Source of the DNA: Pseudomonadota bacterium | Lineage (GTDB): Bacteria > Bdellovibrionota_B > Oligoflexia > Oligoflexales > CAIYRB01 | NCBI GenBank assembly: GCA_026390435.1 | Contig: JAPLFY010000101.1 | Location: forward strand, 1 to 33,467 | DNA length: 33,467 nt | Reading direction: 5' to 3' | Shown: positions 190 to 28,100 of the stretch, in pieces | Numbering within the stretch: the first letter of the stretch is position 1 | How the letters are laid out: each line of letters starts with the position of its first letter | Notes under the pieces: model-generated | What the model was told of the DNA's origin: nothing | Database searches by the model: none | Seen by the model: the letters and a program-made list of their open reading frames with translations, nothing else | Made by a program: the position numbers and the translations under genes

Positions 190-266
190 TGGCGAGGTCG
201 GCGGGACTTGAACCCGCGCCCTCCGGCGTGACAGGCCGGCGTTATAACCAACTTAACTACCACCCC
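190..266 (-). tRNA. tRNA-Asp (anticodon GTC)
   Basis: The reverse complement folds as a cloverleaf. The anticodon stem CCGGC/GCCGG encloses a loop with GTC. The T arm is GCGGG-TTCAAGT-CCCGC, and the D arm has a GTTA/TAAC stem. The acceptor helix has one G-U pair and one G-G mismatch. Discriminator G and an encoded CCA end the gene (CCA is complementary to 190-192). It has its own promoter and terminator and looks monocistronic. Confidence 0.93.
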
Positions 267-446: not shown

Positions 447-1766
447 GTGAATTTGACGCGTACCGTCTTTGTTGTCGACGATCAGGAATCTATTCTTTCG
501 GCCGTTGCTTCGGTGCTCAGCGATGAGTCCTACCATGTGCAAACTTTCACCAGTGCTGAGGCACTGGCGCAGGGGCTTAGCGAAGGGTTGCCGGACCTGA
601 TTCTTCTCGATATTTGGCTGCCCGGAGTTGATGGCCTCGAGGCCCTGGTCAATCTGAAGCATACTCATCCAAATCTTCCAGTCATTCTCATGAGTGGTCA
701 CGCGGGCGTCGATATCGCCGTCAAAGCGATGAAGATCGGAGCCAGCGATTTTCTTGAGAAGCCGCTAAATTTAGACCAGCTTTTGGAAAAGATTGCCACC
801 CACTTGCCGCCAATCGATGGTGGCAAAGCGGCTCCTACTAAGTCGGCCGCAGCGCCGTCTTTGGCCAGCGATAATGTCGGGGCGGTGTCGTTAAGCTCGT
901 CGCAACATCGGCAGCGGACGTTGCGTGGTAATGCCGTATTGAACGGAGTGGGTCTACTCAGTGGTCGTCCGACTGGAATTATCATCACGCCGGCGCCAGT
1001 CGACACTGGGATCGTCTTTCGCACCCTAGACGGTGTGGTTATTCCAGCTCACATCACCGCCCTAGAAAACTTCGATAGCATGACCGGGCAGGCTAAGACC
1101 TTCACGGCGAATTCGACGACTTTAGCCAAGGGCGGACGGCACATCCGGACCGTCGAGCACCTGCTGGCTGCTTTGCACATGATGGGAATCACTAACGCTC
1201 TGATCAAAGTCGATGAAGAAATCCCCAACGTAGACGGTTCGGCTGCTGATTATTGCCGCATTATTGCTGCAGCCGGTATTGAGGAGCAAGAGTCGCCTCG
1301 CATCGACCTTGTGGTGAATAAAAAAATCGGTGTCGGCAACGAAGACCTGGCGGAAAAACATGTTTATGTTGAGCCATTTGCAGGCTTCGAGGTGATCCTG
1401 AGAGTGGATTATCCAGCGCCGATTGGTGAGCAACGCTTCCGGTTCAATCCCAGTAAACAAAGTTTTACCGATGAGATTGCCCCGGCTAGGTCGTTCAATA
1501 CATTTGAAAATATCGATATGGCGCAGCAGCGCGGCATGGTTGGATCGGGCTACCTCAATTCCCATATCATCATTCATGACGGCAAAGTGATCAACACCAA
1601 GCTCAATTTTCCGGATGAGTTTGTGCGCCATAAGATCCTGGACTTATTGGGGGATCTGTTTTTGCTCGGGCACAATTTGCGCGGCCGGGTGGTCGGCAAC
1701 ATGACATCCCATGGGCTCAACCAGTCTTTAGCGCTGAAAATTCATCAGGAACTGTCGCAGCGCTAG
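447..1766 (+). CDS. lpxC: Response-regulator receiver domain fused to LpxC deacetylase
   Basis: A 439-aa two-domain protein. Residues 5-120 are a CheY-like receiver of the NtrX/DctD style: acidic pair D11-D12, phospho-acceptor D55 in LILLDIWLPG, S83 in LMSGHA and K105 in FLEKPL. A Gly/Ala/Ser-rich linker (about 121-155) leads to a complete LpxC domain (156-439). LpxC is the Zn-dependent UDP-3-O-acyl-GlcNAc deacetylase that catalyses the committed step of lipid A synthesis. Its key residues are present: E237-H238 in RTVEHLLAAL, H395/K396/D399 in RHKILDLLGD, D403, and H422 in TSHGLN. LpxC alone is about 300 aa, so the receiver is an addition. The start is GTG with AGGGG at 434-437. No partner kinase gene adjoins it. 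Phosphorylation control of the enzyme is inference; the fusion itself is read directly. Confidence 0.93.
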   Translation: MNLTRTVFVVDDQESILSAVASVLSDESYHVQTFTSAEALAQGLSEGLPDLILLDIWLPGVDGLEALVNLKHTHPNLPVILMSGHAGVDIAVKAMKIGASDFLEKPLNLDQLLEKIATHLPPIDGGKAAPTKSAAAPSLASDNVGAVSLSSSQHRQRTLRGNAVLNGVGLLSGRPTGIIITPAPVDTGIVFRTLDGVVIPAHITALENFDSMTGQAKTFTANSTTLAKGGRHIRTVEHLLAALHMMGITNALIKVDEEIPNVDGSAADYCRIIAAAGIEEQESPRIDLVVNKKIGVGNEDLAEKHVYVEPFAGFEVILRVDYPAPIGEQRFRFNPSKQSFTDEIAPARSFNTFENIDMAQQRGMVGSGYLNSHIIIHDGKVINTKLNFPDEFVRHKILDLLGDLFLLGHNLRGRVVGNMTSHGLNQSLALKIHQELSQR

Positions 1767-1871: not shown

Positions 1872-2654
1872 ATGTTACTCATTCAAAGCATACTTTTTAC
1901 TCTGATCGGAGCCGTCGGTGCGGCTGTGCCGCTACTCATTGGGCGGCAACGCGGCATCCCTCTATGGCTCTTGCCCTTGGCGACGGGCGTCATGATCGGG
2001 CTCTGCGGCTTCGGGCTGCTACCAGAGGTGCTGCACGAGGGCGGCAGACTTAGTGCCGAGGTCGTGCTGACTGTGGCAGTGGTGTACTCGATTGTTCATC
2101 TACTGCACGTAAGTCAACATGCTCACCTCACGCATGACCATACCTCCGGTCATTGCGATCACCACCATAAGGGTGAATCAGATATCCCATCTGGCGACAA
2201 TGCTAAGCCGCTGCTTGTATTCTTTTGCTCGATTTTGCTGCATTCGCTGTTTGATGGCGCGTTGCTAGTCATTTCCAATAATTTGGTCAGCACAGCTTTT
2301 CTCACGGTCATATTTTCGCTGGCGATTCATAAACTTTTTGAAGCGATGTCCGTTTCGTCGATTGTCCTTGGGCGTCGGGGTAGTGTGAATCAAGCATTGC
2401 CTTTGATTGGGCTTTATTTACTTAGTTTTCCTTGCGGTGTGGTCGTGGCGACCGTGCTGAAACTTTTTGTTCGTGAGGAGCTACTGCACCCTTTTGCTCT
2501 GGTCGTTATGGCTGCTGCGATTGGGAATTTAGTTAGTTGTCTGCTTTACGACTTCGTCCTGCCGAGTCTGCGTCGATTCCGTCAGGCTAGGGTAGAACTA
2601 GCTTGGCTCGCTTTTGGAATTGCAGCCGCTGCCGCACTTTTGTCGCAGCTTTAA
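1872..2654 (+). CDS. ZIP-family divalent metal (zinc) transporter
   Basis: A 260-aa polytopic membrane protein with about eight hydrophobic segments. The paired ZIP signatures are present: HSLFDG in the fourth helix and HKLFEA in the fifth, the metal-binding centre of the family. A His-rich loop (HAHLTHDHTSGHCDHHH) lies between the third and fourth helices, as is typical. ZIP proteins move Zn2+ or similar ions into the cytoplasm. The ribosome-binding site is weak, but the start sits just before the first helix. It stands alone between lpxC and a convergent lipoprotein gene. Substrate specificity cannot be read from sequence, though zinc is most likely. Confidence 0.88.
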   Translation: MLLIQSILFTLIGAVGAAVPLLIGRQRGIPLWLLPLATGVMIGLCGFGLLPEVLHEGGRLSAEVVLTVAVVYSIVHLLHVSQHAHLTHDHTSGHCDHHHKGESDIPSGDNAKPLLVFFCSILLHSLFDGALLVISNNLVSTAFLTVIFSLAIHKLFEAMSVSSIVLGRRGSVNQALPLIGLYLLSFPCGVVVATVLKLFVREELLHPFALVVMAAAIGNLVSCLLYDFVLPSLRRFRQARVELAWLAFGIAAAAALLSQL

Positions 2655-4111: not shown

Positions 4112-5929
4112 CTAAACGAAGGCGCTATATAACTGAAAATAAGCCCCGTTTGCCGCGAGTAGTTTCTCGTGGGTGCCACTCTCTACGATCTGGCCCTTAT
4201 TGATCACAATGATCTGATCGCATTGACGAATGGTGGAAAGACGGTGGGCGATCACAATGACAGTTCGGTCTTTTAACAACCTAGTCGTCGCCTCTTGGAT
4301 GACCGCTTCTGACTCGGGATCAATCGATGACGTGGCCTCGTCCAATACCACTAATGCAGGATTCTTTGCCAGCGCCCTAGCGAAGGCCAGTAGTTGTTTT
4401 TGTCCTTGTGACAGATTACTTCCATGCTCTCTGATTTCGAAATCGTAGCCGCCTGGTAGGCGCTCGATGAATCGTGCAGCCCCAATCTCGCGTGCGGCTT
4501 TTATCACTTGTTCGCGAGTGATGCCGGGCGTGCCTAAGCTAATATTAAACTCAACGGTACCGTCAAATAGCACAATGTCCTGCGGTACGATGGCAAGATG
4601 CTGGCGTAGCGACTTAGGTTCGATATCTTTTAGATCGCAGTCGTCTATGGTGATGGTGCCTGAATAACCATCGTAGAGCTTGGTGAGAAGTTTGATGATC
4701 GTCGATTTACCGCTTCCAGTCGCTCCCACCAGAGCGACTGATTTACCTGGCTCTAGGACAAACGAGATGTCTTTTAAGACAGGGCCTTGTTGATGATTGG
4801 CAGAGTAACTAAAGCCGACATAGTCGAAAGTAACTTTGCCTGAGATGTCGCGTACGATGGTCTGGCCAGTGACTTTTTCGTCTTTATCTAGGATGCCAAA
4901 AATTCGGTCTATAGAGCTAAAGGCGCCTTGAAGCATCGCCATTTTGTTCCCGAGCTGTTTGAGAGGCTCGAACAATTGCTGGATATATTGCACAAAGGCT
5001 ACCAGAACTCCGGCGGTTAATGCTGAGCCCCAACTCCCCATGCCGCCTGCTGAGTCGACGACGCCACCCACGATCAACCAAAGGACCAGCCCTAACGTGA
5101 TTGAGGCAATGCCATCAAGCACCGCAAACATCACGGCATCGAGCACCACGCTCTCCATCTGTGCATCGCGGTAATCGGTGTTCAGTTGGTTGTATTGCTT
5201 GATTGCAGCTTGCTCGCCATTGAGCAACTTGACGGTGGCATGACCGTAAAAGCACTCCTGCGTGTAACCATTTAAAGCGGCGATTTTCACCCTCGCCAGA
5301 GTCATCGAAGATTTGAGGCCTTTGGAGAACCATTGGACGATCCAGGTCACCACCGGCAGTACTAAGATCGCTGTAAGCGCCAATTGCCAGTTAAGTAGGA
5401 ACATACCTATGACGCAGCCGAGGAGTACGGCGATATCGACGATCGAGTTCAGAACGCCCAGGTTGAGCGATTCGCTCAGATTATCGAAGTCCCCTGTGGC
5501 GCGGGTGACTAGGGCACCACTCAAGGCCCGGTCATGGTAAGCGGCTTTTAGATCGAGCACATGATCTATGAGTTTCATTCGCATGATCCGAATCATGTTT
5601 AAGACAGCTCTTGAGCTCGCAATCGACTGCCCAGCCCTGGCAAGATACTCCGCAATCACCACCATTAAATAACATGCCGAGCCAAGGAACAGATTGGTCA
5701 TGTTGCCGCTTAGTACGCCCTTGTCGATGGTCAGCCTAAGGAGTAGGGGTAGGGCCATCTGTAGTCCAGAGATGAGCGGAATCAAGACTGCTGCGGCCAG
5801 AATCATACTCTTGTCTTGGACTAAATAGGGCCAAAGTTTGCGCAGACCAGCAATGTCCGCCATAAAGCCGCGACTTTTATCGCTGGGGTGTTCAACCTGG
5901 GCGCTGCTAACTTTTGCTGTATGTCTCAT
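4112..5929 (-). CDS. ABC exporter half-transporter with canonical ATPase site (MsbA/BmrD type)
   Basis: A 605-aa fused membrane/ATPase half-transporter. The transmembrane domain (about 35-330) has six helices. In the nucleotide-binding domain: Walker A GATGSGKST (402-410), Q-loop Q450, signature LSQGQ (506-510), Walker B LVVLDE with catalytic E531, and H-loop H562. The LSQGQ-plus-Glu combination resembles the consensus-site subunit of heterodimeric exporters (TM288/YheH type). The exporter encoded at 8034-9782 carries Asp where the Glu should be, so the two are likely partners although a sensor gene separates them. It is the last gene of a five-gene minus-strand block, 73 nt after the SpoIIE gene. 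Substrate unknown; drugs or lipids are the usual cargo. Confidence 0.9.
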   Translation of the reverse strand: MRHTAKVSSAQVEHPSDKSRGFMADIAGLRKLWPYLVQDKSMILAAAVLIPLISGLQMALPLLLRLTIDKGVLSGNMTNLFLGSACYLMVVIAEYLARAGQSIASSRAVLNMIRIMRMKLIDHVLDLKAAYHDRALSGALVTRATGDFDNLSESLNLGVLNSIVDIAVLLGCVIGMFLLNWQLALTAILVLPVVTWIVQWFSKGLKSSMTLARVKIAALNGYTQECFYGHATVKLLNGEQAAIKQYNQLNTDYRDAQMESVVLDAVMFAVLDGIASITLGLVLWLIVGGVVDSAGGMGSWGSALTAGVLVAFVQYIQQLFEPLKQLGNKMAMLQGAFSSIDRIFGILDKDEKVTGQTIVRDISGKVTFDYVGFSYSANHQQGPVLKDISFVLEPGKSVALVGATGSGKSTIIKLLTKLYDGYSGTITIDDCDLKDIEPKSLRQHLAIVPQDIVLFDGTVEFNISLGTPGITREQVIKAAREIGAARFIERLPGGYDFEIREHGSNLSQGQKQLLAFARALAKNPALVVLDEATSSIDPESEAVIQEATTRLLKDRTVIVIAHRLSTIRQCDQIIVINKGQIVESGTHEKLLAANGAYFQLYSAFV

Positions 5930-6002: not shown

Positions 6003-7916
6003 TTATGCCACCTTTGCCGCAGTCTCTGCTCTCTTGCCGATAACCACGAGGCAGATATCATCCTCAGCCGGTACATCCAGCGTGTGATTTTTGAAGAGTG
6101 TGAGGATTTCATCACGGAGCTCACTAGCGGTCCTGTGAGAATTAATTTTTTGTACATAGCGGTGAAAGGGGCGGGCGAAACTGCGTCCGTCCTTGCCCAC
6201 CGCTTCCGTTAGGCCGTCCGTGTAGACCACAAGTAAGTCGTCTAATCCCAGGGTGTAGATGGCGTCGGTGTATTGGTGGGGCACGCTGCCGTGGGTACTG
6301 TCATCACCAAGCATGTACTGCTGTTTGCGTGCGAGAGCCTCGATTTTGCGATGGCCGTCAGATCCCTGTCTTAAGATCAGCGGAAATGTGTGGCCAGCAT
6401 TACATATGGCAAGTCGACCGCTTTTAAAGTCAATCTGGGCTGCAACACATGTCATGCGTAAATTACTAGTGCCTATGAGTTTGAGAATGACGTTATTTAG
6501 CTGACTTATAATTGCTGCCGGAGTCATGATCGATGTGTTGTTGAAATCATGAATGAGCGACTCTACTAAGGTCATAGCTCCAGCCATTGCAGTCGTAATA
6601 AGTCCCTGCGCAAGGCCATGCCCTGTAACGTCTCCCATGATGACGTAGACACTGTTGCCATCGCGTGACTCGATCACGTTAAACCAGTCGCCACCCACGC
6701 GCAGGACAGGTGCGTAGTGATAGGCAATGACGGCACTGCGCGGTGGTTTGCTTTCTTGGTCTACCAGCATTGAGCGTTGAACCGTCTCAGCAACCTGAAG
6801 TTCAGCTGCAATAAAGGCGCTCTCGCGGATGAATGATTGGCGAATTAAAGCCTGCGTCGACAAGGACATTAGTGAGCGCAGAAGGGCGGTAATCGTGGGG
6901 TCGGGGACAGAAGCAAATGAAATAGTGATACTGCCAATCGTCTGAAATCTTGATTTGATCGGGAAATTGAACACGCGCCGGTCGTCTGCAGGCTCTCGAT
7001 TTAGTTCAATACCCGCTTCATGAGCCAAGAATACTTGCCCACGTACGGCTACTAAAGGAGAGAGAGAGGGGGCTCCGTTATCTGAGGTTAGCTCGGGGGT
7101 GCTGCTAAACTCAGCATGCTCGGCACCGCAAACACGGAATGCCAAGGTCATCGTCTGCTTGATTAAACTTTCGGTGTCTGAACAAGAAAAAATGTCCAAA
7201 ATTGCCTGGTTCAAAATCTTTAGTTTGCTGCGATTGCTCTCAAGTGCCGATTCGCGTTTGGCAATCTCGCGCGCCATAATCATTATTTTTTCCGACATAT
7301 CGCTTATTTCAAGCTGTCTAGCCGCTGGCAGCTGATGCTGGTAATCGCCCTGAGAGATGCGACTGAGGCCTTCAGATAGGCTAGCCAGAGGCTCTTTTAG
7401 AAAACGGCGCAACAGGATTGCGGTACCAAAGATTAGGGCGATGGTGATGATGGCAAAGACAGCAGTTGAGTATAGGGCCGTGTGGATCTGTCTCTGCGCA
7501 CTTTCGGGGTCAGTAAAAAGTATCGTAACACGGCCGATAGGCGTCTCATTGTGGGTGATGGTGCGGGTCAACTTAAGCTGGACCTGGGCAGAAGTTCGTG
7601 TAAATGGGATGAGTTCGCCGCTGTCATCGGCCACCGAAATATCAGCAACCACACCAGACTGGCGATAGATCGCAACTATCTTCTTTAATTCGTCTGTATT
7701 GAGGTTCCACACCGGCGTCGCCAGAACCGAGGCCAAATTATCTGCCGTCTCCACCGCTTTATCATTCAAAGCGTGCGTGTCACGGTTGACCGTAAATAGG
7801 TAGTTAGCGATACCCGCTAAGGCGAAAACCAAAGTAACAGCACGAATCAACCCAAGCGCCAGGTCGCGAACGATCGTTTGGCGGTGGAGATTTAGTGCTT
7901 CGAGAAACGGCTTCAT
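6003..7916 (-). CDS. Membrane sensor with HAMP and SpoIIE/PP2C phosphatase domain
   Basis: A 637-aa signalling protein. A transmembrane helix (about 22-42), an extracytoplasmic sensor region (43-147), a second helix (148-170), a HAMP region (171-225), a GAF-like region (about 230-360) and a C-terminal SpoIIE/PP2C-type phosphatase domain (395-630) follow in order. The metal-binding acidic residues are visible: D410 in VGGDWF, D429 in GDVTGHG, D567 in VYTDGL and D620 in AEDDICLV. Such proteins dephosphorylate partner-switch anti-sigma-antagonist (STAS) proteins in response to an outside signal. No STAS or anti-sigma gene lies nearby. It sits between two exporter halves transcribed in the same direction, suggesting a link to their control or to sensing their cargo. 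That link is inference. Confidence 0.88.
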   Translation of the reverse strand: MKPFLEALNLHRQTIVRDLALGLIRAVTLVFALAGIANYLFTVNRDTHALNDKAVETADNLASVLATPVWNLNTDELKKIVAIYRQSGVVADISVADDSGELIPFTRTSAQVQLKLTRTITHNETPIGRVTILFTDPESAQRQIHTALYSTAVFAIITIALIFGTAILLRRFLKEPLASLSEGLSRISQGDYQHQLPAARQLEISDMSEKIMIMAREIAKRESALESNRSKLKILNQAILDIFSCSDTESLIKQTMTLAFRVCGAEHAEFSSTPELTSDNGAPSLSPLVAVRGQVFLAHEAGIELNREPADDRRVFNFPIKSRFQTIGSITISFASVPDPTITALLRSLMSLSTQALIRQSFIRESAFIAAELQVAETVQRSMLVDQESKPPRSAVIAYHYAPVLRVGGDWFNVIESRDGNSVYVIMGDVTGHGLAQGLITTAMAGAMTLVESLIHDFNNTSIMTPAAIISQLNNVILKLIGTSNLRMTCVAAQIDFKSGRLAICNAGHTFPLILRQGSDGHRKIEALARKQQYMLGDDSTHGSVPHQYTDAIYTLGLDDLLVVYTDGLTEAVGKDGRSFARPFHRYVQKINSHRTASELRDEILTLFKNHTLDVPAEDDICLVVIGKRAETAAKVA

Positions 7917-8033: not shown

Positions 8034-9782
8034 TTATTGTGCCGAAATTAGTTCTGGATGATTTTTTACCAAACTCTGATAGGTACCTCGGTCCACAATA
8101 TACCCGTCGTCCAGAATCAAGATCTCGTCACATCGGACCAATGCTGATCCGCGATGGGAGGCTATGATTAGAGAGGATTTCATTTGGTAGAATTCGTCGA
8201 TAAGTCGCCTCTCTGTGGTGTGATCCACAGCAGAAAGAACGTCGTCTAATAGCAATAGTGGAGGCATCCGGAGTAGCACGCGAGCGAGAGCAAGGCGCTG
8301 CTTTTGACCTCCGGAAAGGCGGACACCTCGCTCCCCGATCTCAGTGTCCCAGCCGCGATCAAAAGTCTCTATTTCGGCGAGTATTTGGGCCTGCCGCGCT
8401 GCCTCAATTAATGCGGCCATAGGTGGCTCTGGGGTGATGCCAAATGCGAGATTAGCTCGAATCGTTGACGAGAATAAGTGCACTTGCTGTAGGGCCAGGC
8501 CAATGTCGCGGCGTAACTCTGACGGAGGGATATTCAGGATATCCTCGCCACGCCAGAATACAGTTGCAGGCGGTGGATCGTACAGCCGCGTTAAAACTTG
8601 GAATAGAGTGGACTTTCCACTGCCTATGCGACCAAAGAGTCCAAGGCTCTGTCCTGCCATCAGGCGAAGGTTGATCCCTCGAAGTGCTGGTGAAGCTGCA
8701 TCTGGATAAGAAAAATGTAGATCTCGGATCTCAAGCATGGGCTTGTCGTCTTGCTGAATGCTAGCGCGAGGCGCCTCTGGGTGCGGCGAGCTCTGTAGTT
8801 CAGGCGTTGCCCTGTCGATGGCACTGATTCTCTCCAGTGCAGTGCGCGCACGTTGTAGCAACGATAAAATGATCCCCATAGCTGTGAGGGGGAAGGTGAG
8901 CAAGCCGATATACACATTAAAGGCTAAAATATCACCGACAGATAGTCTGCCAGCTATGACCTCCTGGCCACCATAAAGCAGCACGACTAGTTGCGATACG
9001 CCGGCGAGACAGGTCATAAGAGGCCAAATTAGCGTTCTAATGTAGACCATCTTCATCGCGGTCTGGAACACTTCCTGGTTTTTCTCGGCAGCGCGATCTA
9101 CGAAAGTAGCTGTGGCAGCGTTAGCTTGAATGACGTGAACATTTACGAATGCCTCGGTCACGCGATTAGTCAAGGCGCCGATGGCTTGTTGATTTGAGCT
9201 TGAATATTGATGCATCCGCGGCATGGCGAAGCGGGTGATCACGAAAGTTAGGGTGAGTGGTATCAGTAGAAGCATCGTCAGCGTGGCGTGCACGGATGCC
9301 ATCTTGGCGAGGGTAAATACGGTTAGAAAGGCGACGTTTAGTACTTGTAGCACGCCAAATGCATAAAATGCTCGCAGTTGGCTCACGTCATTTGACAGTC
9401 TTGAAATGAGGTCGCCCATGCCAAAGCGAGCGTAAAAAGTCTCTGGCAAGAGCATGGTGCGGGCAAATAAGTGGGATTTGATAGCTGTTTCCACCTGCCT
9501 GCCGGGCCAAAATATGAGGACGCGAGATAGGGAACGGATGATAATAGTTAAAATACCGAGACCAATGATGGCAAGTGCGGTACCCCGCTCGCCACTAAGG
9601 TCATTGGCTGCTACCAAGCGGTTGATGATCTCCTTGGCTAGCTGGGGGATTTGGAGGTTGATCAAATTGATGGCTGCTAGCAGCACGGTGCCGCTAACAT
9701 ACCAAGGCCACAAGCGAGCAACGAAGCGGCGTGAAAATTCACCAAAGCCCAAAGTCGTTTGGGTGTGCTCACTTGCTGTCAA
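8034..9782 (-). CDS. ABC exporter half-transporter with degenerate Walker B (BmrC/TM287 type)
   Basis: A 582-aa half-exporter. Six-helix membrane domain (about 22-310), then Walker A GRIGSGKST (384-392), signature LSGGQ (489-493), Walker B LLLLDD and H-loop H543. Position 514 is Asp instead of the catalytic Glu, and the following LSAVD is typical of the degenerate-site subunit of heterodimeric exporters. Its likely partner is the LSQGQ/Glu half at 4112-5929. The start codon is TTG (complement of 9780-9782): AGGAG lies 6 nt upstream, and TTGA overlaps the stop of the preceding ATPase gene, indicating translational coupling. Cargo unknown. Confidence 0.9.
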   Translation of the reverse strand: MTASEHTQTTLGFGEFSRRFVARLWPWYVSGTVLLAAINLINLQIPQLAKEIINRLVAANDLSGERGTALAIIGLGILTIIIRSLSRVLIFWPGRQVETAIKSHLFARTMLLPETFYARFGMGDLISRLSNDVSQLRAFYAFGVLQVLNVAFLTVFTLAKMASVHATLTMLLLIPLTLTFVITRFAMPRMHQYSSSNQQAIGALTNRVTEAFVNVHVIQANAATATFVDRAAEKNQEVFQTAMKMVYIRTLIWPLMTCLAGVSQLVVLLYGGQEVIAGRLSVGDILAFNVYIGLLTFPLTAMGIILSLLQRARTALERISAIDRATPELQSSPHPEAPRASIQQDDKPMLEIRDLHFSYPDAASPALRGINLRLMAGQSLGLFGRIGSGKSTLFQVLTRLYDPPPATVFWRGEDILNIPPSELRRDIGLALQQVHLFSSTIRANLAFGITPEPPMAALIEAARQAQILAEIETFDRGWDTEIGERGVRLSGGQKQRLALARVLLRMPPLLLLDDVLSAVDHTTERRLIDEFYQMKSSLIIASHRGSALVRCDEILILDDGYIVDRGTYQSLVKNHPELISAQ

Positions 9783-21549: not shown

Positions 21550-22494
21550 ATGATAGCCATATTCCCAGAAATAGTTGCCACGTCGTCTGCCGGCGATGTC
21601 GAACGGCTGGCGATTTTAGTGCGTCGCTACTTTGGTGGTGCCCAGACTTTTGCACCGAAGCCTGATCTTGCAGGGTTGGTGGAAACCGCTGGGCTATCTC
21701 TTAGATTTCTCGGCCTGGGCTCCGAGGGTGCCTTGCTTGCAAAGGACGAGCGCGGTGCGTTTAGTATCGTCATGGTCGTCAATCAGCGTCTTGATATTCA
21801 GGCTACTCAGTTCATGATCGCGCATTTGCTCGGACATTATTTGTTAGACATACAGCCGATTATTGCGCGTGGAGAGTGGCAGGTCAGTGGCTATCAGGAG
21901 GAGATTTGTGCTCTGACGCGCTACTGCAAACAAAGCAACGGTAAAGCCGCCACGCGCAAGGAAGAGGCGCGCGAGATGCGTGCAGATGCATTTGCCGCGG
22001 CATTGCTGCTGCCGCGCGCCATGGTGATGCGTGCGATGGAAAAATTGCAGGATCCAGCCAAGATCGCCACCTTCTTTGGTGTGTCGCGAGCTTGTCTCCA
22101 GCGTCGGCTGAGTGATCTCGGGTTAGTTATCAACGATCCCGTTAACTTTCTTGATGCCGAGATCCGGGCTGGGGTAGGCGAAGTAAATTCTGCGTCGGCC
22201 GAAGCTGATGCGGGCGAGTCTCAATTAGTTTCTCCTGAGGGTTCGATGCCGCGAGCTTATGCCGCATCGACCTATGGTACGACTGAAAAAATGACTCGCA
22301 ATCAGCCCACCGTTGCTGCTCCACTAACGGCTCCAAATGCCCATTCTAACTCAGGTATCACCCCTAAATTAGAAGTCAACAGCGCTCCAGCTCCCGGTGC
22401 GGCGTCTTCGTCTTCGTCGTCGTCTCTACGAGGAATGGACCGACTGCGTGAGATCGCTCGCAAACTAGATAAGGGTGTACCGCCCCAGCGTTAG
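21550..22494 (+). CDS. ImmA/IrrE-like protein lacking the catalytic Glu
   Basis: A 314-aa protein. Residues 15-200 fit the ImmA/IrrE metallopeptidase family: the zinc helix lies at 88-100 and RADAFAAALLLPRAM at 144-158. The HExxH motif reads H92-L-L-G-H96. Both His are kept but the catalytic Glu is Leu, so ordinary peptidase activity is unlikely. The following FGVSRACLQRRLSDLGL (176-192) resembles the helix found after this domain. Residues 205-295 are a low-complexity Ala/Ser/Pro tail with a six-Ser run. The start has GGAGGT 7 nt upstream. It leads an operon with acetoacetyl-CoA synthetase (7-nt gap) and two exporter genes. It may act as a regulator by binding rather than cutting. Confidence 0.75.
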   Translation: MIAIFPEIVATSSAGDVERLAILVRRYFGGAQTFAPKPDLAGLVETAGLSLRFLGLGSEGALLAKDERGAFSIVMVVNQRLDIQATQFMIAHLLGHYLLDIQPIIARGEWQVSGYQEEICALTRYCKQSNGKAATRKEEAREMRADAFAAALLLPRAMVMRAMEKLQDPAKIATFFGVSRACLQRRLSDLGLVINDPVNFLDAEIRAGVGEVNSASAEADAGESQLVSPEGSMPRAYAASTYGTTEKMTRNQPTVAAPLTAPNAHSNSGITPKLEVNSAPAPGAASSSSSSSLRGMDRLREIARKLDKGVPPQR

Positions 22495-22501
22495 TAAAAT
22501 A

Positions 22502-24532
22502 ATGGTTTCGGTGTTCGAAAATTTCGGCTTAGATGCGGGCTGCATGACAGCCTACGGCGACATACTTTGGCACCCAACTGCGCAGCGACTTCAAGACAGC
22601 CACATGGGGCGGTTTTCGGTTGCTATTGAGAAGCGCTATGGCCACGCTTTAGCCGATTTTCCGGCACTGCACGAGTGGTCGGTGCGCCATATTCCGGAAT
22701 TTTGGCAGGCTGTAGTTGAGTACACCGGCATTGAATTCATGACCCCGCCGGTCTCGGTTTATCAGCCGCCGGTACACGGTGGGATGTTGGGTGCAGAGTG
22801 GTTTTCTGGCGCCACTCTTAATTATGCAGCAGCTCAGCTTGCGGGTCCCGAGCGACGTGAAGCTATCATCGCCGTGGCTGAAGGGGCGCCCATTCGTCGG
22901 CTGACCATGGCTGCGCTGCGCACCGAGGTCGCTCGCTGTGCGGCGGCGCTGCGGCAACTTGGGGTCGGGCCTGGCGACCGAGTCGCTGGCGTGGTGGCGA
23001 ATATTCCCGAAGCTATCATTGCTATGTTGGCGACCACGTCGCTTGGGGGTGTTTGGTCCTCGTGTTCGCCAGATTTCGGTGCTGCTGCAGTGACTGATCG
23101 CTTGCGTCAGATTGAACCAAAAGTAGTTTTTTTCACCGAAGCATATGTATATGGCGGCCGACTTTGTGACTGCGCCGAGCAAATCAAAGCTACGATGGCA
23201 GAATTGCCAACCGTGCAACGCGCAGTCCTGATCGATCACTTGGCTCGCGGAGTTGATGGATCCGGCACGATAGGTCTTGGGGTAACTTGGAAAAAGTTTG
23301 TATCCTCGGCACCCCACGAGCCACTGCAATTTACTCCGAGAAAGTTCTCTGATCCTTTAGTTATTCTTTTCTCATCAGGCACCACCGGTGTGCCCAAAGC
23401 CATTGTTCACAGTGTCGGCGGGACTCTGATTCAGCATAAAAAAGAACTTATGCTGCACTCAGACGTCGGACCAGGTTCGCGTCTGCTGTTCTACACGACC
23501 TGCGGCTGGATGATGTGGAACTGGATGGCCTCGGCACTGTCCACGGGGGCCTCATTAGTTCTTTTTGAGGGATCTGTGGGCGCGCCAGACCTGGGAGTAC
23601 TCTGGCGGACAGCACGTGAGCTTGGCGTCACGGCTTTGGGCACCAGCCCTAAGTTTATTGCGACATGTATGGCGCAACATCTCGACGTCAAATCCCTGCT
23701 GCAGGGCTATGCACCGAAAACGCTGCTAGCTACAGGGGCCCCACTTCTGCCCGAGCATTTTGCCTGGCTCTACCAACAGGTCGCACCAGCAGATGGTGAT
23801 ATGCATGTGGCTTCCATCAGCGGTGGCACGGACATTATTTCCTGCTTCATGCTGGGGACGCCGACGTTGCCTGTGCGCGCTGGTGAGATCCAATATGCCG
23901 GCCTTGGCATGGACGTAGACGCCTGGGATGATCATGGGCAGTCGCAGCGTGGTCATAAGGCTGAGTTGGTCTGCAAGCAACCATTTCCAGCCATGCCTAT
24001 AGGTTTTTGGCATGATCCTGAGGGCAAGCGTTATCACGCGGCTTATTTCGAACATTTTCAGAATCCGCAGGTATGGCGACACGGCGACTTTATTGAAATC
24101 ACCCCGCACGGTGGTGTGATTGTCTACGGTCGGTCCGATGCCACGCTAAATCCAGGTGGTGTGAGAATTGGGACTGCTGAACTATATCGGCAAGTCGAGA
24201 CTGTTACTGGCGTGATCGATGCTATTGCTGTCGCCCACCGCAGCGACGGCGACGAGTCTATTGTGCTTTTTGTAAAATTGGCGGAAGGCCTACAACTCAC
24301 GGAAGCACTTGCTCGTGAGATCAAGACAACCTTACGCCAACGCTTAACTCCCCGTCACGTGCCGCGTCAGGTTATTCAGGTGCGTGACATTCCATATACG
24401 CGTAGCGGCAAGAAAGTGGAGCTGGCGGTGACGCAGGCTATCCACGGTGAGCCGGTCGCTAATATGTCGGTCTTGGCAAATCCAGAGTCTATGGCTGAGT
24501 TCTTTGCTTTAGCGAAGGCGTGGCCGGAGTAG
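22502..24532 (+). CDS. Acetoacetyl-CoA synthetase
   Basis: A 676-aa adenylate-forming enzyme converting acetoacetate, CoA and ATP to acetoacetyl-CoA. The N-terminus (ILWHPTAQRLQDSHMGRF, LHEWSVRHIPEFW) is characteristic of this branch rather than of acetyl-CoA synthetase. Motifs: ATP loop FSSGTTGVPKAIVHS, CGWMMWNWMASAL, YGRSDATLNPGGVRIG, and the lysine region IPYTRSGKKVELAV. Length is normal. The start is uncertain: ATG 22502 is used, but ATG 22544 (MTAYGD) and an overlapping GTG at 22475 are possible. It is co-directional and almost contiguous with the ImmA/IrrE-like gene and the exporters, suggesting ketone-body or polyhydroxybutyrate carbon use in the same operon. Confidence 0.93.
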   Translation: MVSVFENFGLDAGCMTAYGDILWHPTAQRLQDSHMGRFSVAIEKRYGHALADFPALHEWSVRHIPEFWQAVVEYTGIEFMTPPVSVYQPPVHGGMLGAEWFSGATLNYAAAQLAGPERREAIIAVAEGAPIRRLTMAALRTEVARCAAALRQLGVGPGDRVAGVVANIPEAIIAMLATTSLGGVWSSCSPDFGAAAVTDRLRQIEPKVVFFTEAYVYGGRLCDCAEQIKATMAELPTVQRAVLIDHLARGVDGSGTIGLGVTWKKFVSSAPHEPLQFTPRKFSDPLVILFSSGTTGVPKAIVHSVGGTLIQHKKELMLHSDVGPGSRLLFYTTCGWMMWNWMASALSTGASLVLFEGSVGAPDLGVLWRTARELGVTALGTSPKFIATCMAQHLDVKSLLQGYAPKTLLATGAPLLPEHFAWLYQQVAPADGDMHVASISGGTDIISCFMLGTPTLPVRAGEIQYAGLGMDVDAWDDHGQSQRGHKAELVCKQPFPAMPIGFWHDPEGKRYHAAYFEHFQNPQVWRHGDFIEITPHGGVIVYGRSDATLNPGGVRIGTAELYRQVETVTGVIDAIAVAHRSDGDESIVLFVKLAEGLQLTEALAREIKTTLRQRLTPRHVPRQVIQVRDIPYTRSGKKVELAVTQAIHGEPVANMSVLANPESMAEFFALAKAWPE

Positions 24533-24570
24533 AGTGGAAACTTGCGACCACAAAAGGGGCGATTAGCGCA

Positions 24571-26316
24571 ATGGCAACCACGGCAGGGAAACTTTATCTA
24601 GGGACGCTCCGTCGGCATTGGCTGCCTTATGCCACCGGCATCGTAGCGCTATTCTCCTGTAGTATTTCCGAAGTTATGATTCCGAAGTTCGTGCAGTGGG
24701 CGCTCGATCTGATCGGCGGTCGCATGTCGATGCTGCCTGCATGGATTGGAGCTGAGCGCAGTGTTGCGACCCTGAATATGCTTATTCTGAGCCTGCTTTT
24801 GGTACTGCTACTCGGATTACTGGGACGATTTGGCTGGCGTCAGCTTTTGGCTAGGCAGACGCACGTGTCTGGTCGCGATCTAAAGGTACATTTTTGGCAG
24901 GTGCTGCGACATTTGCCGCTAGCTACCTTCCATGAGTACTCGCTAGGCGACCTCATGAATAGGGCGACTGGCGATTGGAATGCGACCCGGGCGATTCATG
25001 GGTTCACCCTGGTTCAGAGCTTAGATCTGATCTTTTTTTCCGTGCTCAGTATCGCGTCCATGATTGCTATCGACTGGAAATTGGCGCTAGCGTGCCTGGT
25101 GATCCTCCCATTTCTGCCACGCACAATCCTCAAACTGGCGCGACGCGAACGCGACCAGCATGAGGTCGCTCAAGATAAATTAGGCGAGCTGTCTGATGCC
25201 GTGACGCAATCACTGAGTACGATTCGTTTGCAAAGAGCCACTCACAGCGAAGCTTTGTGGGAAGAACGTCTCCACCGTGAAGCTCGTGAGTACTCAGAGC
25301 GCCGCTTTGCCGTGGTCAAAACGGGCTGGAAGATCTATCCCCTTGCCGCTCTACCAACTTTGGGGGCGTATGCAGTACTTTTATATTGGGGGGTCCATCT
25401 GGTGCAGATTGGGCAGCTAAGTATTGGTCAGTTTGTTGCCATGCAGTCTTATGTACTGATGCTCCAAGGGCCATTAGCCGATATGGGAGATTGCATTGCC
25501 GAGTGGCAACGTGGTTTTGCTAGTTTCGGGCGCATGGTCGAGATTTTTAATCTACAGGCCCTAGCAGAACGCTTTCTCGGCAAGAATGCTCTGCCTGAGG
25601 ATCAGTCCCCGCGACTGAGCGTCAATCATTTGACGTTTTCCTACGGCGATAACTCTCGTCAGGTCCTGAAGGATGTCACGTTGCACGTGGCTCCAGGAGA
25701 GCACATCGGAATTTTTGGACCCATCGGAGCGGGTAAGTCGACACTTCTGGCTATTAGCGCTGGTTTGGTCGAGGTTGCACCGGGCTTTGTCTCGCTCGCC
25801 GGGGTCGATGTGCATGATCTAGATCGTACTTGGTTGGCTCAGCATGTGACCATGGTACCGCAAAGGGCATTTCTGTTTGCCGGTAGCATTCGCTACAACC
25901 TTGAGCTCGACCAGGAATTTGGCGAGGCCGAGTTGTGGCGTGTTCTGAGTCTGGTGCGCTTGGACGCAGATGTGCGCAGCTTTCCCGGTGGCCTGGACAC
26001 ATGGGTCGGAGAGTGGGGAATCAATTTATCCGGTGGTCAAAAACAACGCTTGGCGTTAGCGCGCGCACTGCTGCGTGAACGTTCTGTGATTCTGCTCGAT
26101 GACTGCTTGAGTGCGGTGGATGCTGTGACTGAAGAAGAGATCCTCCGCGGACTGAGAGATCGTCTCCGAGGGGCAACCGTGATTTGGGTGGCGCATCGGA
26201 TGTCGACACTTAAACTCTGCGATCAGGTTTACCAACTTGACGCGGGTGTGTTGAGTCCGTTTGACCTGACCAATGCAGCTCATCAAAACGGCATGCGTCC
26301 TGGAGGGGCACCGTGA
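24571..26316 (+). CDS. ABC exporter half-transporter with degenerate Walker B (BmrC/TM287 type)
   Basis: A half-exporter of 581 aa from the ATG at 24571; a GTG at 24520 would add 17 residues and overlap the synthetase gene. Six-helix membrane domain, then Walker A GPIGAGKST, signature LSGGQKQRLALARALL, and Walker B VILLDDCLSAVD with Asp in place of the catalytic Glu. This marks the degenerate-site subunit of a heterodimer. Its partner is the next gene, whose GTG start overlaps this stop (GTGA). H-loop VAHR is present. The pair is paralogous to the halves at 8034-9782 and 4112-5929. Confidence 0.9.
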   Translation: MATTAGKLYLGTLRRHWLPYATGIVALFSCSISEVMIPKFVQWALDLIGGRMSMLPAWIGAERSVATLNMLILSLLLVLLLGLLGRFGWRQLLARQTHVSGRDLKVHFWQVLRHLPLATFHEYSLGDLMNRATGDWNATRAIHGFTLVQSLDLIFFSVLSIASMIAIDWKLALACLVILPFLPRTILKLARRERDQHEVAQDKLGELSDAVTQSLSTIRLQRATHSEALWEERLHREAREYSERRFAVVKTGWKIYPLAALPTLGAYAVLLYWGVHLVQIGQLSIGQFVAMQSYVLMLQGPLADMGDCIAEWQRGFASFGRMVEIFNLQALAERFLGKNALPEDQSPRLSVNHLTFSYGDNSRQVLKDVTLHVAPGEHIGIFGPIGAGKSTLLAISAGLVEVAPGFVSLAGVDVHDLDRTWLAQHVTMVPQRAFLFAGSIRYNLELDQEFGEAELWRVLSLVRLDADVRSFPGGLDTWVGEWGINLSGGQKQRLALARALLRERSVILLDDCLSAVDAVTEEEILRGLRDRLRGATVIWVAHRMSTLKLCDQVYQLDAGVLSPFDLTNAAHQNGMRPGGAP

Positions 26317-28100
26317 AGGATGACTCTTTGGCTGAGTCTGACGATAAAGTCCTTGCTGCTGCCAGCGATCTCATCGGCATGCTGCAAGTTTTGCGCATGG
26401 GTAGTCATGTCTATAGGCAGCTTTTTTCCGCTCTAGCGTTGATTATCGTAGCGGCTATGTCAGTGATGTACTCTGCTCGACTTCTTGGCCGCATCGTTGA
26501 GTCCTTGGTCGGTGGCCGCGACGCGTCCGAAATCTGGCCAATTTCAGCAGCATTCCTCGCACTTGAGGCGAGCGCTGTCGCCTGCCAATACTTTGGTCGG
26601 GTGATTTTGGCGCATGCCACCATTGAGATCACCTATAAATTGCGCAGTGAACTCTTCGCCAAAATGCGGCGCCTGCCGATCGCTTATTTTGACTCCCAGC
26701 CGCTCGGGCGGACAATCACAAGGCTGACTTCAGATGTCGAGGGCATCGAGAATTTTTTCACCGGTACCCTCGCCAGGGTGTTAATTGCGGTCATCAACAT
26801 CTTGACTGTGCTGACGGCCATGTTGGTGACTGATTTGCATTTTGGCGCTATCATCGTCGCCGTATGCTTTCCGGCACTAATGTTTTCGGTCGCTCTACGC
26901 CGTCCAGTGGTATTTTGGCTACGCACTTACAAGCGCCGCTCAGCGCATCTGAACGCAAAACTGGCCGAGTATTTGAATGGGTTGCCGGTGATCCGCATCT
27001 TTGGTCTCGAGATTTGGAGCCAGCGACAATTTGATGAGTCGGCGGCCGAGCTTTTACAGGCGGGAATTGCCACTTTAAATTGGAACAGCGTCATTCGCCC
27101 TGTGGCAGTGTTTCTATGCTCTTTGCCAACTGTGCTTGTGCTGTGGCTTGGCGGTCAGCGAGTGATTGATGGCGCCATGGAGCTGGGGCTTTTGGTTGCG
27201 TTTGTGCGCTTTAGCGAACGTTTTGTGTCCCCGATTCGAGTGATTTCGACAGAAATTCAGAATATTCAAGAGGCCGTCGTGTCGAGTGAACGCGTACGCC
27301 GCATGCTCACAGAAACTGAAGAGCACGATGTGCTTGGTCGCGATGGTTCGCTGTTGCCGACGCTGCGCGGCGCGATTGAGTTCCGCGATGTTTGGATGAG
27401 CTATAAACCGGGGACACCGGTGCTTAAAGGAGTATCGTTTAAAATTACTCACGGAATGAAGGTTGGTCTTGTGGGAGCCACTGGCTCGGGCAAGAGTTCG
27501 ACAGTGAATCTGATCCCCAGACTGTATCCGCTGCAAAGTGGACAAATTTTTCTCGACGACATCAATATTGCCGATATCAAAAGCGCTCATTTACGTCGCC
27601 AGCTTGGTTACGTAAGCCAAGATGTGATTGTATTTGCCGGAAGTCTGCGAGCAAATTTACTCGCATCAGGAGCGGGACAGGGACTGAGTGACGAGCTCAT
27701 TCTCGCAGCCTGCGCACGCACTGGTCTCAGCGAAGTCATCGCAAATGTCGAGGATGGTCTGGACTACCAGTTGGTTGAAGGCGGCGAAAATCTGAGTGCA
27801 GGAGAACGTCAGTTGGTGGCATTCACCCGCATGCTCCTGCGTGATCCTGCCATTTTGATTTTGGACGAAGCCACCGCGAATATCGATGAACACTGTGAGC
27901 GTATGATTCAGGCGGCGACTTTCGAACTCATGGCCGGTCGCACATGTTTAGTGATCGCACACAGGCTGAGTACAATTATTCACTGCGATTTAATTTTAGT
28001 TTTTGCCGATGGTCAGATTGTCGAGCAGGGCACGCACAGCGAGTTAATGGGCCGCGGTGGTTACTATGCCCAGCTCGCGGGCAAGCAGTTGCTCAGTTGA
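26313..28100 (+). CDS. ABC exporter half-transporter with canonical Walker B (BmrD/TM288 type)
   Basis: A 595-aa half-exporter starting at GTG 26313, with GGAGGGG just upstream and a GTGA overlap with the partner gene. Walker A GATGSGKSS (388-396), a non-consensus signature LSAGE (494-498), Walker B ILILDE with catalytic E519, and H550. The variant signature plus real Glu complements the partner's normal LSGGQ plus Asp, the arrangement of asymmetric exporters with one active ATP site. Substrate unknown. Its last 57 bp overlap the convergent folK gene. Confidence 0.92.
   Translation: MKDDSLAESDDKVLAAASDLIGMLQVLRMGSHVYRQLFSALALIIVAAMSVMYSARLLGRIVESLVGGRDASEIWPISAAFLALEASAVACQYFGRVILAHATIEITYKLRSELFAKMRRLPIAYFDSQPLGRTITRLTSDVEGIENFFTGTLARVLIAVINILTVLTAMLVTDLHFGAIIVAVCFPALMFSVALRRPVVFWLRTYKRRSAHLNAKLAEYLNGLPVIRIFGLEIWSQRQFDESAAELLQAGIATLNWNSVIRPVAVFLCSLPTVLVLWLGGQRVIDGAMELGLLVAFVRFSERFVSPIRVISTEIQNIQEAVVSSERVRRMLTETEEHDVLGRDGSLLPTLRGAIEFRDVWMSYKPGTPVLKGVSFKITHGMKVGLVGATGSGKSSTVNLIPRLYPLQSGQIFLDDINIADIKSAHLRRQLGYVSQDVIVFAGSLRANLLASGAGQGLSDELILAACARTGLSEVIANVEDGLDYQLVEGGENLSAGERQLVAFTRMLLRDPAILILDEATANIDEHCERMIQAATFELMAGRTCLVIAHRLSTIIHCDLILVFADGQIVEQGTHSELMGRGGYYAQLAGKQLLS

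Follow-up and report, generated by a model that had tools for sequence, protein, structure and literature searches.

Fusion of an NtrX-type receiver domain to LpxC in three bacterial phyla points to a probable direct signaling route from NtrY to lipid A synthesis

The window, by which we mean the whole stretch of 33,467 nucleotides analyzed here, comes from an Oligoflexales genome. Near its start, a single uninterrupted open reading frame (447–1766, forward strand) encodes a protein of 439 amino acids that contains a complete receiver domain and a complete LpxC, the gatekeeper of lipopolysaccharide synthesis, which carries out the committed step of lipid A synthesis and serves as an antibiotic target. 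The frame opens with GTG, and a putative ribosome-binding-like AGGGGA lies 8 nt 5′ of this start (433–438). The protein matches Response_reg (PF00072) over amino acids 7–116 with 100.9 bits (cut-off 30.2) and LpxC (PF03331) over amino acids 156–433 with 244 bits (cut-off 27). These two are its only Pfam matches, with no AAA or HTH domain found in it. The lpxC equivalog model TIGR00325 is also passed, at 209 bits against a cut-off of 187. As the sole LpxC of its 4.28-Mb source genome, the protein is predicted to be the working UDP-3-O-acyl-GlcNAc deacetylase of the cell, and LpxB was found in all fusion-only genomes searched. The gene has a divergent tRNA-Asp gene just 5′ of it (190–266, reverse strand), also present in G002 and G004. 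Directly 3′ of this zinc-enzyme gene stands a ZIP-type metal transporter gene (1872–2654, forward strand), a neighbor that no genomes but the closest relatives (G002, G004 and G005) share.

The receiver domain spans amino acids 6–119 (462–803, forward strand, as for all features of the gene that follow) and is intact, as the preliminary description stated. It holds the acidic pair D11/D12 of the Mg2+ site (477–482), the predicted phospho-acceptor D55 (609–611) within the NtrX-like motif LLDIWLPG.DG, the switch residue S83 (693–695) in an SGH as in NtrX, and K105 (759–761). A flexible Ala/Ser/Pro linker (amino acids 120–153, 804–905) leads into the deacetylase domain (amino acids 154–434, 906–1748), and here too the claim of a complete LpxC with its zinc and catalytic residues holds. 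The catalytic Glu E237 and the zinc His H238 sit in TVEHL (1155–1160), the zinc ligands H395 and D399 in RHKILD (1629–1643), and the catalytic His H422 follows at 1710–1712. We take these residues, invariant in nine Oligoflexales fusions, to be the equivalents of E78, H79, H238, D242 and H265 of the Escherichia coli enzyme; K396 is also present. The AlphaFold model, built from a 28-sequence alignment, displays two confident domains (mean pLDDT 88.5, pTM 0.77) joined by a linker that is disordered, with pLDDT below 50 at amino acids 126–138. Among 40 fusions, this linker ranges from 27 to 64 residues and is variable in sequence. The best Foldseek matches of the LpxC part are the LpxC structures of Pseudomonas aeruginosa, E. 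coli and Aquifex aeolicus, with which the protein has in common the full deacetylase fold and every catalytic and zinc residue.

The source assembly is fragmented and of metagenome type (153 contigs), and an assembly or frameshift artefact could in principle have joined a response-regulator gene to lpxC. The probability of this is negligible, as the same fusion occurs in independent assemblies of many species from three phyla and forms one LpxC clade, and we rejected the artefact on the strength of these independent orthologues. Among 56 relatives, the five other genomes of the genus all carry the same long open reading frame, rather than separate genes or a frameshift at the junction, and no second LpxC was found in any of the five. 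Both parts of the gene are under purifying selection, with dN/dS of ~0.03–0.08 for the receiver and ~0.01–0.035 for LpxC in pairs for which dS could be estimated. One congener, G001, has an in-frame deletion of ~180 bp within the LpxC part (L032:3120-4265, L046), which removes amino acids 194–253 including the zinc-binding EHL motif. The deletion may be real or an assembly error; the protein would be inactive if it is real, and no second LpxC was found in this genome. A fusion of the LpxC-FabZ type, known from Bacteroidetes (PRK13188/NF009667), was ruled out by score and domain content. It likewise holds LpxC within a larger natural fusion, but its partner is a C-terminal dehydratase, and the window protein covers the LpxC part only, with 175.7 bits against a cut-off of 465.

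Examination of related genomes for the same domain order, as the preliminary description had suggested, revealed that receiver-bearing LpxC spans at least three phyla, so that an initial view of the fusion as confined to Oligoflexales was dropped. Fusions are present in ten Oligoflexales genomes, in 12 of 296 sampled Nitrospirota (7 of these 12 lacking any other LpxC), and in 27 of 118 sampled Desulfobacterota. The Desulfobacterota fusions comprise 19 REC-LpxC proteins and eight whole NtrX-LpxC proteins of the order REC-AAA-HTH-LpxC, the latter encoded by open frames of 630–820 amino acids, one of which, L322, is interrupted by a frameshift close to where its receiver ends. Within Oligoflexales, genus g20 carries the fusion together with an ordinary LpxC in three genomes and the fusion only in one, and G006, from the same family as the window genome, has an ordinary LpxC. 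The catalytic LpxC residues are all kept in 48 of 48 fusions. D11/D12 and D55 are conserved in 46 of 47 fused receivers, the exception having a damaged N-terminus (L298/L328), and all 47 carry Ser or Thr at the position of S83 and Lys at that of K105. A literature search for a receiver-LpxC fusion found none described, although subscription papers or annotations in databases may mention one.

In an LpxC tree of 121 rows, all 48 fusions group as a single clade (SH-aLRT 100), distinct from the 73 ordinary LpxCs, which include the ordinary copies from fusion-bearing genomes. Support for the fused clade in an earlier tree of 101 rows was 100/97. Since this clade unites sequences from Oligoflexales and Nitrospirota, it indicates spread by horizontal transfer. 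Viral spread was also considered and set aside, as a scan of viral contigs found no relatives.

The fused enzymes differ from ordinary LpxC also at the other end of the chain. The C-terminal tail of E. coli LpxC carries the degron through which the enzyme is degraded via FtsH/LapB, the textbook mode of LpxC control. Ordinary LpxCs have a median of 44 residues past the last catalytic His, whereas the fused ones have 16–24 (medians 19 and 17); the window protein ends 17 residues after H422 (1713–1763), without a degron-bearing tail. The fused family thus acquired a receiver and gave up its degradable tail, probably in a single event in the common ancestor of the clade, and absence of the tail suggests that control through an FtsH/LapB-type degron was probably replaced as well. 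In ordinary Oligoflexales LpxCs (e.g., L042 and L043), the C-terminal tails are long and, with their small hydrophobic end residues (SYA, SSL), recall the degron of E. coli.

Several lines of comparison bear on the origin of the receiver. Against curated families, its best matches are FixJ, NtrX and NtrC. A receiver tree places those of the fusions together with NtrX and other response regulators outside, at a moderate SH-aLRT support of 84–87 from few alignment columns. The window receiver is 38–45% identical to NtrX receivers versus 25–34% to other receivers of its own genome, and it carries SGH and LLDIW motifs of the NtrX type. Taken together, the fused receiver apparently descends from NtrX. 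The window protein itself, judged by its domains, is NtrX-derived but not an NtrX, as it has neither the sigma-54 AAA domain nor the HTH output.

Gene order connects the fusion to the cognate kinase of NtrX. In Thermodesulfovibrionia G058 and G059, the REC-LpxC gene, which encodes the sole LpxC there, overlaps the upstream ntrY by 4 nt, with a DUF4390 gene before ntrY; the NtrY proteins of these genomes consist of NtrY_N, HAMP, PAS, HisKA and HATPase domains. The same ntrY-[REC-LpxC] pair is present in Desulfobacterota (L311, L312, L313 and L316), and ntrY-[NtrX-LpxC] is found in L319–L322 of this phylum. Separate genes in the order lpxC-ntrY-ntrX occur in more than 20 loci, which were chosen by the receiver scan, with L338 and L340 as unselected examples. 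The Desulfobacterota sample is less biased; of its 23 NtrX-bearing genomes, 7 have lpxC and ntrX on the same strand no more than ~5 kb apart (G427, G378, G363, G394, G390, G464 and G379). These arrangements can be ordered into four states: separate lpxC-ntrY-ntrX (A), ntrY-[NtrX-LpxC] (B), ntrY-[REC-LpxC] (C), and the orphan REC-LpxC that is the case of the window (D). The order from A to D is one that we infer from the sequences. All eight whole NtrX-LpxC fusions (L319–L325 and L329) lack GAFTGA, the motif of sigma-54 contact, and have an altered Walker B, whereas Walker A is kept. Loss of the contact motif implies that transcriptional output is probably gone, and the AAA domain has the appearance of a decaying sigma-54 activator fused to an enzyme. 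State B is placed inside the REC-LpxC diversity of the LpxC tree, a position compatible with, though no proof of, the AAA-HTH part having been lost several times.

Stand-alone NtrX tends to be missing where the fusion is present. Within Desulfobacterota, it is found, at 519 bits or more, in 24 of 25 genomes with ordinary LpxC versus 0 of 27 fusion genomes (Fisher 6e-14, kinship ignored); as the fused clade has one origin, both NtrX loss and the short tail represent fewer independent events than such genome counts suggest. Neither of the two Thermodesulfovibrionia genomes has it, and these and the fusion genomes contain nothing above 417 bits. In the Oligoflexales set, NtrX is present in G006, G007, G008, G010, G011, G015, G022 and, among the four fusion genomes of g20, in two. 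It is missing from G027, from G033 and from each of the six members of the window's genus. In G033, where the only LpxC detected is the fusion, a 112-aa NtrX remnant lies directly after ntrY (L231:4664-5002), a pseudogene by its sequence and a vestige of the lost NtrX. The DUF4388 gene that comes after ntrX in G006 directly follows ntrY in the window's genus, and ntrX is thus cleanly missing there.

NtrY, in turn, was kept in every genome searched, among them all of the Oligoflexales genomes just named, and the HEIKNP motif is intact where aligned. This phospho-acceptor region is almost unchanged between G006, which has NtrX, and the window's genus. The window genome carries an intact ntrY (G000:C73:23000-25183), away from the REC-LpxC contig. 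By these comparisons, fusion genomes tend to have lost NtrX yet keep NtrY. A stronger statement, that NtrX is lost in every fusion genome, was dropped: NtrX coexists with both the fusion and an ordinary LpxC in G036 and G039, and the majority of the ten Nitrospirota genomes with orphan fusions keep an NtrX-like regulator (480–507 bits), which adjoins NtrY only in G358. Ordinary LpxC is present in five of these ten. Replacement of NtrX is, therefore, not universal.

A link between NtrYX and lpxC is known at the level of transcription. Deletion of ntrYX in Rhodobacter sphaeroides raised the lpxC transcript 8.8-fold and increased LPS, an effect judged to be indirect (PMC7240162). A 2025 review gives the LPS rise as approximately two-fold, reports that NtrYX also inhibits lpxC transcription in Caulobacter crescentus, and names transcription as the only level at which two-component systems act on lpxC (PMC12444477). 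In Desulfovibrio vulgaris, from the phylum in which fusions are frequent, lpxC is the single target of the response regulator DVU2934, and the orthologous operon of Syntrophobacter fumaroxidans is immediately preceded by lpxC (PMC3333781). DVU2934 resembles the fusion in being a response regulator aimed at lpxC, but it controls the gene by promoter binding (PMC3333781). The window protein shares with the NtrY-NtrX system the receiver type and a kinase that lies directly upstream of the fusion in several phyla and is retained in the window genome. It differs in that NtrX is a transcription factor composed of receiver, sigma-54 AAA and HTH domains, with reported control of lpxC being transcriptional (PMC7240162, PMC12444477), whereas in the window protein the enzyme itself is the output and ntrY lies outside the operon.

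We consider it quite likely that REC-LpxC is at once LpxC and a response regulator, to which NtrY signals directly in place of transcriptional control through NtrX. The preliminary description had proposed direct two-component control of this enzyme, and comparative genomics lends weight to that reading, in which the regulatory step itself is an inference from sequence. NtrY would be the most likely input kinase of the window protein even though the gene is an orphan, and phosphorylation of D55 by NtrY would most likely set LpxC output directly, substituting for an ancestral NtrYX control of lpxC transcription. The output might be exerted by allostery, receiver dimerization, stability or membrane recruitment; a rigid interface between fixed domains is made less likely by the disorder of the linker. 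In alphaproteobacteria, NtrYX is reported to lower lpxC expression, and by analogy one may speculate that phosphorylation restrains LpxC. The broader account, which we hold to be fairly probable, is that of a widespread and previously undescribed class of response regulators with LpxC as output. Its evolution would have begun with NtrX controlling lpxC transcription, passed through whole NtrX-LpxC fusions in which the AAA domain decayed, and led to a minimal REC-LpxC that receives its signal directly from NtrY and has displaced both NtrX and the degradable tail.

The output step could also take a form in which catalysis is left unaltered and the receiver acts as a conditional module for stability or localization, through phospho-controlled proteolysis via an N-terminal degron or docking on membrane-bound NtrY. 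This is a credible, if less probable, explanation. The linker, long, disordered and variable in sequence and length, predicts no fixed domain interface, and N-terminal control may have replaced the E. coli degradation route, the C-terminal tail being absent from every fusion. On the other hand, neither a degron nor a tether motif was identified, and the input, from NtrY to the receiver, is the same as in direct control of LpxC output, with only the output step being different.

The identity of the kinase is the second point at which explanations diverge. No kinase gene adjoins REC-LpxC in the window, in any Oligoflexales fusion locus or in most Nitrospirota fusions. The neighbors of the Oligoflexales fusions are kept only among close relatives, and no conserved neighbor qualified as a kinase, the ZIP transporter being common to the closest relatives only. 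Together with the moderate identity of the receiver to NtrX (the 38–45% given above), this leaves some room for another histidine kinase or acetyl phosphate to drive the orphan in Oligoflexales. We regard this as unlikely, given that the receiver is NtrX-type and that NtrY has been kept, its phospho-acceptor region nearly unchanged relative to G006, throughout a genus that lost NtrX, so that it needs some partner. Even more improbable is an inert receiver, either a leftover or a merely structural N-terminal domain with no role in signaling. The presence of an ordinary LpxC in some genomes could be read in this manner, but the phosphorylation residues are retained in nearly all receivers across three phyla, the receiver is held under the low dN/dS reported above while the linker diverges freely, and linkage to ntrY is repeated.

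Receivers and enzymes are likewise joined in one chain in the methylesterase CheB, the HD-GYP protein RpfG and the diguanylate cyclase PleD, by analogy with which phospho-control of REC-LpxC would be expected. To our knowledge, the outputs of such enzymatic response regulators are mostly signaling enzymes, whereas that of REC-LpxC is an essential biosynthetic one. REC-LpxC would then add to the known response regulators with enzyme outputs a form that acts through an essential biosynthetic enzyme, and for which sequence comparison points to both the kinase family and the evolutionary source. If direct signaling from NtrY holds true, the receiver in LpxC would constitute a signal-to-enzyme route that sets outer-membrane synthesis while bypassing gene expression, and would explain the recurrent position of NtrYX beside lpxC or envelope genes. 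NtrY and REC-LpxC together would offer a simple system for how NtrY signals are read, and the series of arrangements documents with unusual completeness how a transcription factor was turned into the regulatory domain of an enzyme.

Elsewhere in the window, a gene for a protein with HAMP and SpoIIE-type phosphatase domains (6003–7916, reverse strand) is flanked by ABC exporter genes at 4112–5929 and 8034–9782. Further downstream, an IrrE-like peptidase gene (21550–22494) precedes a group on the forward strand (22475–28100) in which an AMP-binding gene resembling those of acyl/acetyl-CoA synthetases comes before two ABC exporter genes that overlap each other.
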